Assembly: GCF_024609765.1 (NCBI RefSeq)
Contig: NZ_JANFDG010000030.1
Coordinates: 1-64,000, forward strand
Source of the DNA: Shinella pollutisoli
Lineage (GTDB): Bacteria; Pseudomonadota; Alphaproteobacteria; Rhizobiales; Rhizobiaceae
Length of the DNA: 64,000 nt
Direction of reading: 5' to 3'
Position 1 is the stretch's first letter. Every line of letters starts with the position of its first letter. Under the pieces are notes generated by a model. That model saw nothing but the letters and a program-made list of their open reading frames with translations, was not told the DNA's origin and did no database searches. Shown piece by piece: positions 18,054-37,056 of the stretch. The position numbers and the translations under genes are program-made.

Positions 18054-18064
18054 TAATACCAGTT
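18054..18064 (-). promoter_or_regulatory. NanR-like box upstream of the GntR/UTRA gene
   Basis: The forward strand reads TAATACCAGTT, whose reverse complement is AACTGGTATTA. It lies 52 bases before the GntR start. The same core AACTGGTAT occurs before nanE, before oiaX and before apnO, always in the same orientation relative to the gene. E. coli NanR binds GGTATA repeats. Both GntR genes in this window are candidate binders. Confidence 0.55.
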
Positions 18065-18116
18065 CAACACACGAAAAAAATATTGCATAAAGGGGCATGT
18101 TCCGCGCGGGTGCCCC

Positions 18117-18863
18117 ATGAACGATCAGGCCATCATCGATTTTCTGGCGGGCCTGGTGTCCCCCGAGAGCGGCGAGCCGCTCTACCGTCAGCTCGGGACG
18201 GCGCTGAAGACCGCCATCGACACGTCGGTCCTGAAGCGGGGCGCCGTCATCCCCAGCGAGCGCGACCTCGGCGAAGGGCTCGGCATATCCCGCGTCACGG
18301 TGCGCAAGGCCATCGAGGGGCTGGTGTCCGAAGGGCTGCTCGACCGGCGCCAGGGCGCCAAGACGGTGGTGTCTCCCCGGCTGGAGAAGTCGCTGGCGAC
18401 GATGACGAGCTTCTCCGAGGACATGCGCTTGCGCGGGCTCGAACCCGGATGCGTCTGGATTTCCAGAGAAATCAGCCGCCCCTCGCCCGCGGAGATGATG
18501 GCGCTGGGCATTCCCGCCCACGAGCGGGTCGTGCGGCTGCGGCGGCTGCGCACGGCGGACGGCACGCCGATTGCCATCGAGACCGCCACCCTGCCCGCGC
18601 GCTTCGTGCCCGACCCGCAGGCGATCGGCGATTCCCTCTACGAATATCTCGCCGGCCACGGTGCCCTGCCGGTGCGCGCCATGCAGCGCATGCAGGCCAA
18701 GCCCGCCTCCGAGGAGGAGCGCCGGCTGCTCGCCACGCCCGAGGGCTCAAGCCTCCTGACGATGGAACGGCGCTGCTTTCTTGCCGACGACCAGATCGTC
18801 GAGTTCACCCAGACGAAATACCGCGGCGACGTCTACGATTTCGTCATCGAGCTGACGCGATAA
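18117..18863 (+). CDS. GntR-family regulator with UTRA domain (HutC/DasR class)
   Basis: A 248-residue regulator. The N-terminal GntR winged helix (about residues 20-85) shows LYRQLGTALKTAID, PSERDLGEGLGISRVTVRKA and LVSEGLLDRRQGAKTVV. The rest is a UTRA ligand domain with LRRLRTADGTPIAIETATLP. In this class the ligand is often an amino-sugar phosphate (NagR, DasR), which fits the NanE and NanK genes directly downstream. The gene lies between two copies of the AACTGGTAT box, so it probably regulates itself and the nan operon. DasR-type sites share the ACTGGT half-site. Confidence 0.87.
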   Translation: MNDQAIIDFLAGLVSPESGEPLYRQLGTALKTAIDTSVLKRGAVIPSERDLGEGLGISRVTVRKAIEGLVSEGLLDRRQGAKTVVSPRLEKSLATMTSFSEDMRLRGLEPGCVWISREISRPSPAEMMALGIPAHERVVRLRRLRTADGTPIAIETATLPARFVPDPQAIGDSLYEYLAGHGALPVRAMQRMQAKPASEEERRLLATPEGSSLLTMERRCFLADDQIVEFTQTKYRGDVYDFVIELTR

Positions 18864-18871
18864 TACCAGTT
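18861..18871 (-). promoter_or_regulatory. NanR-like box upstream of nanE
   Basis: The forward strand reads TAATACCAGTT, identical over 11 bases to the copy at 18054-18064. It begins inside the last codon of the GntR gene and lies about 75 bases before the chosen nanE start. Confidence 0.55.
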
Positions 18872-18945
18872 TAATTCCTGTTGCATTCTGGTTTCTTCCT
18901 GCTAGCGTGCCGGACATGTGGGAATGGACGTGCGGGAGGATGCGC

Positions 18946-19632
18946 GTGACCTTCGATATCCGCCAGCTCGAGAACGGCCTGATCGTCTCCTGCCAGCCGG
19001 TGAAGGGCGGCCCGATGGATCATGCCGCCATGGTCGTCGGCTTCGCGCTCGCGGCCCTCGACGGCGGTGCCGCCGGCCTCAGGATCGAATCCGCCGACTA
19101 TGTGCGCGCCGTGCGCAAGGCGACGGACCGCCCGGTCATCGGCCTCGTCAAGCGCGACCTGACGGACTCGCCCGTCCGCATCACGCCCCTCCTTCAGGAT
19201 GTCGACGACCTTGCCGAAGCCGGCGCGGACATCATCGCCTACGACGCGACGGCGCGGCCGCGCCCGGTGGAGACCGCCGCCCTCGTCGCCCGCATCCGCG
19301 CCGCCGGCAAGGTCGCCATGGCCGACTGCTCGGTGCTTACCGACGCCGAACGCGCGCTCGCCGAGGGCGCCGCCGTCGTCGGCTCGACGCTTGCCGGCTA
19401 TACCGGCCCCATCGAGCCGACCGAGCCGGATTTCGCGCTCATGGCCGGCATGCGCGCATTGACGCCCTACGTGATCGCCGAGGGCTGCGTGCGCACGCCG
19501 GAACAGGCGGTGCGCGCAAAGGCCGCGGGTGCCTTCGCGGTGGTCGTCGGCTCGGCCATCACCCGCCCCGAGCACGTGACCTCCTGGTTCCGCGGCGCGC
19601 TCGACGGCGCCGCCACGGCAGGCGGGGGCTGA
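18946..19632 (+). CDS. nanE: N-acetylmannosamine-6-phosphate 2-epimerase
   Basis: A 228-residue TIM-barrel epimerase that converts N-acetylmannosamine-6-phosphate to N-acetylglucosamine-6-phosphate in the cytoplasm. Family marks are LIVSCQPVKGGPMDHA, GLRIESADYVRAVR, PVIGLVKRDL (catalytic lysine region), SPVRITPLLQDVDDL, ADIIAYDAT, VAMADCSVLTD and VVGSTLAGYTG. I chose the GTG at 18946 because GGGAGG at 18934-18939 is spaced six bases from it. The in-frame ATG at 18940 touches that site and is too close, and an earlier ATG at 18907 would give a long odd extension. It is followed five bases later by the kinase. Confidence 0.9.
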   Translation: MTFDIRQLENGLIVSCQPVKGGPMDHAAMVVGFALAALDGGAAGLRIESADYVRAVRKATDRPVIGLVKRDLTDSPVRITPLLQDVDDLAEAGADIIAYDATARPRPVETAALVARIRAAGKVAMADCSVLTDAERALAEGAAVVGSTLAGYTGPIEPTEPDFALMAGMRALTPYVIAEGCVRTPEQAVRAKAAGAFAVVVGSAITRPEHVTSWFRGALDGAATAGGG

Positions 19633-35617: not shown

Positions 35618-35635
35618 GGTTTTCCTCCCGGTTAG

Positions 35636-35714
35636 GCACCGGCGTCCAGCGGCCATTCCCCCAATTGAAAATGGCCGCCCCGGTGCGATCTCGTGGACCG
35701 GCGCGATGCGCCGG
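35636..35714 (-). repeat. Intercistronic hairpins between apnO and the binding-protein gene
   Basis: Two strong inverted repeats occur. CCGGCGC (35698-35704) pairs with GCGCCGG (35708-35714) just after the apnO stop. GCGGCCATT (35649-35657) pairs with AATGGCCGC (35670-35678), flanked by an outer GCACCGG (35636-35642) and CCGGTGC (35680-35686). Neither is followed by a T run on the reverse strand, so they are more likely messenger-processing or stabilising structures than terminators. Confidence 0.6.
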
Positions 35715-35717
35715 CAA

Positions 35718-36545
35718 TCAGGTGATGCGGCGGATGCTGGCCGCGATTTCCTCCGGCTCGAAGACGCGCTTCCAGTCGTCCTTCATGAGCACCGGCTTGC
35801 CGAACTCGATGGCCTTGTTGCAGGCGTCGGAGAAGACGCCGGGCGTCTCCTCGAAGATCACCGCGCCGAGCACGTTCATGTGGCCGAGCAGGAAGTCGCG
35901 CGCCGCCTCCTTCGGCACGCCGCGCGCCACGCACTCGTCCATCGCCTCGCGCATGACGACGAGCAGCGAGGCGCAGACGGTCTCGGAAAGCCCCGGCTCC
36001 AGCATGGCCATCTGCTCGACGGTGACGCGGTGCGAGCGCATGACCGGCGCCCAGATGATTTTCGCGATCTCCTCGCCGAGCGCATAGGCCTCCTCCGGAC
36101 CCTGCATCAGCGCCGAGACAATGTGCTGCTTGGCGGCGACGCCGCCGAAGAAGTCGCGCTTGGCGGCCGGGTCCGTCTCGTCGTTGAAGATCGGCGGATG
36201 ACAGGGGTGGGTGACGAAATAGGTAAGATCGTCGCGTGCCGGCAGGTGGCCGGCGAAGGGGGCGGCGGCGTCGAGGATGACGAGCATGGTGCCGGGCTTC
36301 AGCCTGTCGGCGATGCCGGCGGCGACCTTGCCGATGGCGGTGTCCGGCACGGCGAGGATGACGACGTCGGCGCCGTCGAGGCCCTGGTCGGCCGGAACGC
36401 AGGCGATGCCGAGATCGTCCGAGAGGCGGGCCTTGCCCGCGTCGCTCACCTCGATGTGGCGGACGTCGAAGCGCGAACCCTTGAGGTTCTTGGCGAGCCG
36501 ATAGCCCATTTTGCCGCCGGCGCCGAACAGCGCGATCGATGTCAT
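35718..36545 (-). CDS. apnO: D-apionate oxidoisomerase
   Basis: A 275-residue NAD-dependent enzyme with a 6-phosphogluconate-dehydrogenase-like Rossmann start, [18 protein letters not shown], and [18 protein letters not shown]. The rest is a helical domain with [15 protein letters not shown] and [14 protein letters not shown]. ApnO oxidises and isomerises D-apionate to 3-oxo-isoapionate. AGGAG stands before the ATG. It is the first gene of the long reverse unit running through binding protein, lipoprotein, ATPase, permease, apsD and apnL. The cofactor domain and the pathway context agree with published D-apionate clusters. Confidence 0.82.
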
Positions 36546-37056
36546 CGAAGTTCTCCTGACTGCGGCGGCCGGGACATGCCCCGAGCCGGCCGGATCTTTC
36601 CATCGCCGGTTACCCGACGCGGCCTATATTTTCCAACTGGTATAACATGTCAATGACTATTTCTCAAAATATGTGCCCCCCGTCATGAGCATGCCGAACG
36701 TCATGTGAGGGACTGCGGCACGATCGGCCGGCCAAGCGTGGCGCTTGCGCAACACTGGCCGAAGTTTTCCGTGTGCGATGAATGATACCGCGCGCCACCT
36801 ACCCGTCTGGCGATCCGCTATCGTCCGGATTAATATGAGTTTTATCGGAAGGTTTTTCCGGCAGGCCTCCTGACGCGGCCGCACAGCTTGGAATCGCTCT
36901 AATCTACCGAACTTGCGTGCCGGCCGATGGTCGGCGAAAAGGTTCGGCGGATAGCAACTACCAAGATCGAACGACGTTGAACGCATTCCGCCGACATCCC
37001 GCCGCCCCCTCGACCGCACGGCCGGCCGACCGCCGGAAGACGGGAAGGAATCCGCG
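36546..37056. other. Intergenic region between apnO and fecI-like gene
   Basis: These 511 bases hold no believable gene. The left part carries the apnO promoter and its NanR-like box. The right part must hold the promoter of the forward sigma gene at 37057. I do not see there the GGAAAW-N11-CGYTCGTAG element found before the next two genes, so this sigma gene may be driven by another sigma factor or by an iron regulator. Confidence 0.5.
36635..36645 (+). promoter_or_regulatory. NanR-like box within the apnO promoter
   Basis: The forward strand reads AACTGGTATAA, identical to the oiaX box. On the reverse strand it overlaps TATACC, placed 17 bases after TTGAGA, and it also directly follows a perfect TTGACA (forward complement at 36647-36652). 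In either promoter reading a protein bound here would block polymerase. It lies about 90 bases upstream of apnO. Confidence 0.65.

Follow-up and report, generated by a model that had tools for sequence, protein, structure and literature searches.

Two operators that share a GntR half-site probably serve separate amino-sugar and D-apiose gene clusters in Shinella pollutisoli

The first 64,000 nucleotides of contig NZ_JANFDG010000030.1 of Shinella pollutisoli (the whole of this stretch is called the window here) carry a cluster of amino-sugar (nan) genes and a cluster of genes for D-apiose catabolism, and one short word, AACTGGTATWA, stands before four of their genes. We consider it highly likely, from sequence comparison, that these four copies belong to two distinct local regulons whose operators are only half alike, each cluster having a regulator of its own: a GntR protein with a UTRA domain on the nan side, and a GntR protein with an FCD domain, resembling Escherichia coli NanR, on the apiose side. 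The motif is true, conserved and rare in this genome, but it appears to represent two operators for two regulators. What these have in common, CTGGTAT, is a GntR half-site already known for NanR and NagQ, and since the shared word would then be the common half of two different operators, the clusters are probably controlled separately. A sequence-only reading of the window had taken the four copies for a single box and had proposed a joint or recently split regulon for amino-sugar and apiose use; instead, each box follows its own regulator, and the flanks beyond CTGGTAT differ.

Results

The four copies lie at 18054-18064 and 18861-18871 on the minus strand (AACTGGTATTA) and at 27652-27662 and 36635-36645 on the plus strand (AACTGGTATAA), where the sequence-only reading had located them. 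Its observation that all share one orientation relative to their genes is also correct, with the TACCAGTT strand pointing in each case toward the downstream gene (the UTRA regulator gene, nanE, oiaX and apnO). The 18861 box overlaps the TAA stop of the UTRA regulator gene, so its final bases are partly fixed by coding. These are the only exact matches in the organism's own genome (5,221,616 bases in 79 contigs), against one for the reversed control pattern, and none of 100 shuffles of the window held four. All four genome copies fall within one 18.6 kb stretch, and on this ground we rejected a chance origin of the boxes in this genome. The 8-mer CTGGTATW, by comparison, is at background there (104 matches versus 97 for its reversed control).

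Pattern scans covered 13 genomes of the genus and eight genomes of other families. The 11-mer has 22 exact matches across the genus genomes, 20 of them inside the two clusters, whilst the reversed control has 17, so what counts is where the copies lie and what accompanies them rather than how many there are; the remaining two lie between genes (G004) and at the end of an open frame (G009). In the eight genomes of other families the word occurs 0 to 10 times apiece, always less often than its reversed control, so bare words say little outside the family. The scan for this word that had been suggested as a check speaks for the boxes in their own genome and means little beyond the family. Conservation in relatives, which had likewise been expected, holds for the boxes beyond the genus: the apiose box is conserved in records of Rhizobium, Sinorhizobium and Mesorhizobium, and the nan box in other genera and in one genome of another family (G175). 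It does not hold for the leading AA at the apiose genes, where AACTGGTAT is found in 54 of 101 oiaX rows and 60 of 86 apnO rows of the alignments described below.

Each pair of boxes occurs with its own regulator from genome to genome. In all nine scanned genus genomes with an ortholog of the FCD protein, the apiose pattern CTGGTATRAYRWGTMW matches exactly at two places, one at oiaX and the other at apnO; the four scanned genus genomes that lack the ortholog have no exact copy. Orthologs of the FCD protein (at least 89% identity) are present in 17 of 21 genus genomes, and close orthologs of the UTRA protein (at least 68%) in the window's genome and in eight others of the 201 searched. Among the 21, six have both regulators, 11 only the FCD protein, one only the UTRA protein and three neither. 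The 11 with an FCD but no UTRA ortholog retain both apiose boxes, and the nan boxes (TAATACCAGTTYAA) follow the UTRA gene and are kept in three genomes without an FCD ortholog (G005, G060 and G071). The base that follows CTGGTAT is also specific to each cluster, with rare exceptions: T at nan and A or G at apiose.

On the nan side, AATACCAG precedes the UTRA regulator gene in 11 of 15 loci, and in all 10 loci (from nine genomes, the window included) where the regulator is at least 68% identical. Thirteen loci have sequence past the UTRA stop codon, and in 12 of them this codon is overlapped by the second nan box, TAATACCAG; two loci that end at the stop codon (L089 and L090) were left out of this count. 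The base after CTGGTAT is T in all 12. A second CTGGT stands 23 bases beyond TAATACCAG in 10 of these 12 loci, CCGGT taking its place in the other two, and four loci have a further CTGGT between the half-sites. In the window, the two parts of this box flank a putative nanE -35 element, TTGCAT at 18881-18886, judged by eye. Two copies of CTGGT at a spacing of 11 bp occur 3' of the regulator in five of the 13 loci (L095, L097, L098, L099 and L100), where the window has only CCTGT/CTGGT. The one locus that misses the stop-codon box, L100, has the most distant regulator and carries the palindrome CTGGTATATACCAG and CTGGTATTATGCTGGT in its place. The first of these, a perfect palindrome at L100:4617-4630, 3' of the regulator, resembles the classic HutC-type arrangement.

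NagQ of alpha- and betaproteobacteria is described, in the accessible parts of PMC4494728 and PMC5343134, as a UTRA-type GntR protein with TGGTATT half-sites at amino-sugar genes. The UTRA protein at 18117 is like NagQ in its GntR and UTRA domains and in having TGGTATT half-sites at amino-sugar genes, and it is 48% identical to the regulator in the own genome's nag locus (NagA-like and SIS genes), which carries TGGTATTTTTTTGGTATC, a period-11 repeat. Unlike NagQ, its gene lies beside nanE, kinase and ABC transporter genes, and its second box consists of inverted half-sites 23 bp apart; an 11-bp direct repeat is clear only in some relatives. The portion of PMC4494728 that we consulted reports that NagQ (HutC subfamily) binds direct repeats of TGGTATT and NanR (FadR subfamily) direct repeats of TGGTATAW. 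The boxes of the window divide in the same way, into CTGGTATT for the UTRA protein and CTGGTATA for the FCD protein. The A-versus-T split that the earlier reading had recorded within its single box thus falls into place, because NanR and NagQ half-sites differ at that base.

The apiose footprint was drawn from 101 sequences: the window, 20 relative loci and the best 80 of 301 named loci, some of which duplicate each other. In each sequence, the site taken was whichever stretch of the 260 upstream bases matched CTGGTATRAYRWGTMW best. Owing to repeated records, the 101 oiaX rows reduce to 70 distinct 36-mers and the 86 apnO rows to 65, and 15 of the 101 sequences have no row upstream of apnO. 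In the window the sites read CTGGTATAATGAGTAT at oiaX and CTGGTATRAYRWGTMA at apnO. The two bases after CTGGTAT are AA in 100 oiaX rows and TA in one; at apnO, 83 of 86 rows have CTGGTAT, and the next two bases are AA in 43, GA in 42 and CA in one. Over the 70 distinct oiaX sequences, every column from the C to the A of ATGAGTA carries 1.68 to 2.00 bits; the base before the C carries 0.68 bits and the one preceding that 1.38. Scored with a matrix of the oiaX sites, the window's apnO site comes third and the nan boxes 244th and 187th; with a matrix of the apnO sites, the oiaX site comes second and the nan boxes 143rd and 34th. The second-best match to the oiaX matrix in the window, at 52245-52270 on the minus strand (TTGATTTCATGAGTAAAAAAGTATAG, 8.5 bits), may be due to chance. 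Upstream of apnO, TTGAC is found with ATATA at equal spacing (TTGAC-N17-ATATA) in the window and in 16 of 19 relatives, the remaining three keeping TTGACT only.

The E. coli K-12 NanR operator, taken from its record, reads CTGGTATAACAGGTATAAAGGTATATCG with repeats at 0, 9 and 17, and its first 11 bases are identical to the window's apnO site. Both apiose matrices rank this operator first of 9950 positions in a 5-kb stretch of E. coli nan DNA, mainly through the first half-site. Unlike the (GGTATA)3 operator of E. coli, the apiose sites of the window have degenerate second and third repeats; among 18 offsets, half-site matches peak at +9 for oiaX and +17 for apnO, which are the E. coli offsets. 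A tandem-repeat arrangement of the apiose operators is plausible on these alignments. In Mesorhizobium loci (among L143-L180) the apnO site is often CTGGTATGATCACTCTACCA, with TGGTA/TACCA arms, unlike the Shinella arrangement.

The regulator at 27756 had been called closely similar to E. coli NanR, and the likeness is borne out: the two are 41% identical, and the protein has the GntR and FCD domains and scores 348.6 bits in the NCBIfam NanR model, above its cut-off of 260. All 14 aligned members, including E. coli NanR and two paralogs, match this model at E <= 1e-20, the cut-off itself having been compared for the window's protein only. NanR has nine listed DNA-contact residues, six of which are kept (E58, R59, G68, R69, R73 and E91, the three arginines being base-reading ones), and S33, S71 and N89 differ. 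The four zinc ligands (D172, H176, H222 and H244) are all retained, as are R128, F168 and L245 among the non-metal contacts to N-acetylneuraminic acid (Neu5Ac); the other seven of these ten contacts (N165, I200, R203, H214, N215, S218 and Q221) are changed or missing. With the metal ligands kept and seven Neu5Ac contacts lost, a metal-bound sugar acid is plausible as the effector and Neu5Ac unlikely.

The FCD gene lies within the D-apiose cluster and not among sialic-acid genes. It adjoins oiaX in all 20 relatives fetched and stands between oiaX and apnL in 19 of them, the other (L081) having apnL beyond oiaK. The nanA family gave no match over its cut-off in the one genome searched, with seven weaker matches. 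The FCD regulator probably represses apiose genes, and its NanR name is then misleading.

The features are collected in Table 1. The nan side of the window runs LysR gene, box 1, GntR/UTRA gene, box 2, nanE, ROK kinase, ABC genes and a ProC-like gene, and the apiose side oiaK and oiaX (minus strand), the 27652 box, the GntR/FCD gene, apnL, the Gfo/Idh oxidoreductase, ABC genes, apnO and the 36635 box. The apiose order is retained in most of the 20 relatives fetched, and proteins more than 50% identical to OiaX, OiaK, ApnO and ApnL are encoded near the FCD gene in 99, 98, 86 and 78 of the 101 sequences, respectively (some of these are shortened). We take the Gfo/Idh/MocA oxidoreductase to be the probable D-apiose dehydrogenase, and the product of 35718..36545 is presumably ApnO, a name that no NCBIfam model carries. 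Between the ProC-like gene and oiaK, composition-based calling placed no gene in about 580 bases (24471-25052), where short open frames are listed.

Table 1. Genes and candidate regulatory sites of the nan and D-apiose clusters in the window
Feature	Position	Strand	Evidence or remark
nan box 1 (AACTGGTATTA), NagQ-like regulator half-site	18054..18064	-	ends 52 bases before the UTRA regulator start
GntR/UTRA (HutC subfamily) regulator, NagQ-like	18117..18863	+	Pfam GntR 52.8 bits, UTRA 124.5 bits; orthologs, synteny
nan box 2: TAATACCAG on the regulator stop codon and CTGGT at 18888-18892	18861..18892	.	flanks putative nanE -35
NanE-like N-acetylmannosamine-6-phosphate 2-epimerase (start approximate)	18946..19632	+	PF04131 221.4 bits; PRK01130 265.3 bits (cut-off 189)
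ROK kinase, N-acetylmannosamine-kinase-like	19635..20510	+	PF00480 155.1 bits; PRK05082 233 bits, below the cut-off of 283
ABC transporter: substrate-binding protein and two permeases	20504..23599 (approximate limits)	+	nan cluster
OiaK-like 3-oxo-isoapionate kinase	25053..26354	-	NF042436 443 bits, below the cut-off of 700
OiaX, RuBisCO-like 3-oxo-isoapionate-4-phosphate decarboxylase	26358..27614	-	NF042437 783.6 bits (cut-off 700)
Candidate apiose operator 1 (CTGGTATAATGAGTATTTATGTTATT), between oiaX and the FCD regulator gene	27654..27679	+	CTGGTAT in 101/101 rows; near-invariant to column 14
GntR/FCD regulator, NanR-like	27756..28472	+	GntR and FCD domains; NanR model passed
ApnL, D-apionate lactonase	28475..30343	-	NF049900 823 bits (cut-off 750)
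Gfo/Idh/MocA oxidoreductase	30340..31404	-	apiose cluster
Sugar ABC substrate-binding protein	34676..35656	-	>50% identical protein in 87/101 apiose sequences, some shortened
ApnO-like oxidoisomerase, PGDH_C domain	35718..36545	-	PF16896 257.5 bits
Putative apnO promoter TTGACA-N17-AATATA	36625..36653	-	conserved in relatives
Candidate apiose operator 2 (CTGGTATAACATGTCAATGACTATTT), upstream of apnO	36637..36662	+	spans -35 and spacer of the putative apnO promoter

Discussion

The boxes of the window do look regulatory, and the suggestion that the two GntR proteins are their likely binders is supported. In the arrangement that we favour, each regulator would serve its own cluster. The FCD protein would bind CTGGTATAATGAGTAT, between its own gene and oiaX, and CTGGTATAACATGTCA upstream of apnO. 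The oiaX box lies on a likely -10 element and the apnO box across TTGAC-N17-ATATA, and as these sites lie on likely core promoter elements, bound FCD protein would block RNA polymerase; the protein likely represses both apiose operons. A pathway sugar acid (at a guess, apionate or 3-oxo-isoapionate) would release it by occupying the metal site. The UTRA protein would bind TAATACCAG/CTGGTATT around the nanE promoter, where it likely represses its own gene together with nanE and the ROK kinase and ABC genes, an amino-sugar phosphate being the probable signal for release. Blocking of RNA polymerase is the simplest reading of repression at both clusters.

Several points weigh against this account. 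When one mismatch is allowed, CTGGTATRAYRWGTMW has 20 matches in the 13 genus genomes (18 of them exact) and its reversed control 21, so that number alone says nothing and the case is carried by exactness, place and company; the two non-exact matches are in G010, near a second NanR-like cluster, and in G011. The same search in the eight genomes of other families gave seven matches against 21 for the control. Orthology was called from identity and synteny, and choosing sites by their match to CTGGTATRAYRWGTMW leans toward A or G after CTGGTAT. Box 1 of the nan cluster is, in the window, a lone half-site. In the FCD protein N89, one of the four putative base contacts of NanR, is replaced by H, and about 13 residues precede the S33 position where E. 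coli NanR has 32, leaving about 19 missing; the available part of PMC8012715 describes this 32-residue N-terminal extension as needed by E. coli NanR for cooperative binding. The tandem tail of the apiose sites is also only partly borne out: at oiaX an offset of +18 suits the third repeat better than +17 does, and at apnO the +9 offset does not stand out. Of 20000 composition-preserving shuffles of the tail of the E. coli operator, 699 reach its similarity to the oiaX matrix and 285 that to the apnO matrix, a weak result, and the apnO matrix on the oiaX site is similarly weak (759 of 20000); the oiaX matrix on the apnO site gives no support (5571 of 20000). Moreover, the second half-site at apnO coincides with the -35 TTGAC, and its conservation may therefore be that of the promoter.

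If one considers instead that one or both GntR proteins bind all four boxes and so tie amino-sugar to apiose use, the near-identity of the 11-mers (they differ at one base), their restriction to four genome copies and the closeness of these within 18.6 kb all fit, and the arginines of GntR proteins are present in both regulators (judged by eye for the UTRA protein). We nonetheless regard this as very unlikely and rejected it, because the sites segregate with their own regulators, and the operators differ outside CTGGTAT. Of the six genus genomes with both regulators, the window's alone has them about 9 kb apart. A single contig carries both in two others, at a distance of about 66 kb, and in three they are on different contigs (some of these are drafts), so that the clusters are not close in any of the other five. 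In addition, a lone GGTATA is reported in the accessible part of PMC8012715 to be poorly bound by E. coli NanR. A recent split, in which both operators would derive from one ancestral site in this lineage, would likewise account for similar words in adjacent clusters, but each box keeps its own variant well beyond the genus, the regulators come from two subfamilies (FCD and UTRA), and what we saw of PMC4494728 lists the NanR half-site and the NagQ half-site separately; we find such a split scarcely credible.

It is also highly improbable that the box is only a promoter element, an extended -10 (TGnTATAAT) with no operator. The 27652 box does contain TGGTATAAT, a perfect extended -10 that is kept in 100 of the 101 oiaX rows, but the GAGTA behind it is almost equally conserved without being a -10 element, and on account of this conserved tail we rejected a pure promoter reading. 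The next base at apnO is A or G, and a -10 element read at the nan boxes would be directed away from the genes.

We return, then, to two regulators with separate operators and to what the NanR-like protein may be. It is conceivable, although we hold it doubtful, that NanR-type regulators and CTGGTATRA operators belong mainly to sugar-acid pathways with RuBisCO-like proteins, that E. coli NanR is a later recruit and that the NanR name is wrong for an entire clade of apiose repressors in Rhizobiaceae. Shinella sp. SUS2 (G010; L182:4674-10935, G010:C33) has a second apiose-like cluster whose products are NanR-like (45%), OiaX-like (49%) and OiaK-like (44%), with CTGGTATAATGACTCA before the OiaX-like gene. 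The window's own genome has a second FCD/RuBisCO-like locus (L086, G000:C7:97000-107000) encoding a NanR-like protein (43%), a RuBisCO-like protein 44% identical to OiaX and an ApnO-like protein (54%), along with ABC genes; no CTGGTAT was found on reading this locus.

A search that left out most subscription papers found no description of a GntR regulator of D-apiose catabolism and no paper since 2018 dealing with apionate together with GntR, and the main text of a study of apiose use by E. coli (PMC13001218) mentions no regulator, GntR protein or operon. A specific candidate operator is now given for this pathway. The analysis also corrects the tempting conclusion that the two clusters share a regulon. 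Automatic annotation of the FCD protein as NanR, which is likely wrong, would suggest sialic-acid use in plant-associated bacteria, and the probable naming error is thus a useful result in itself.

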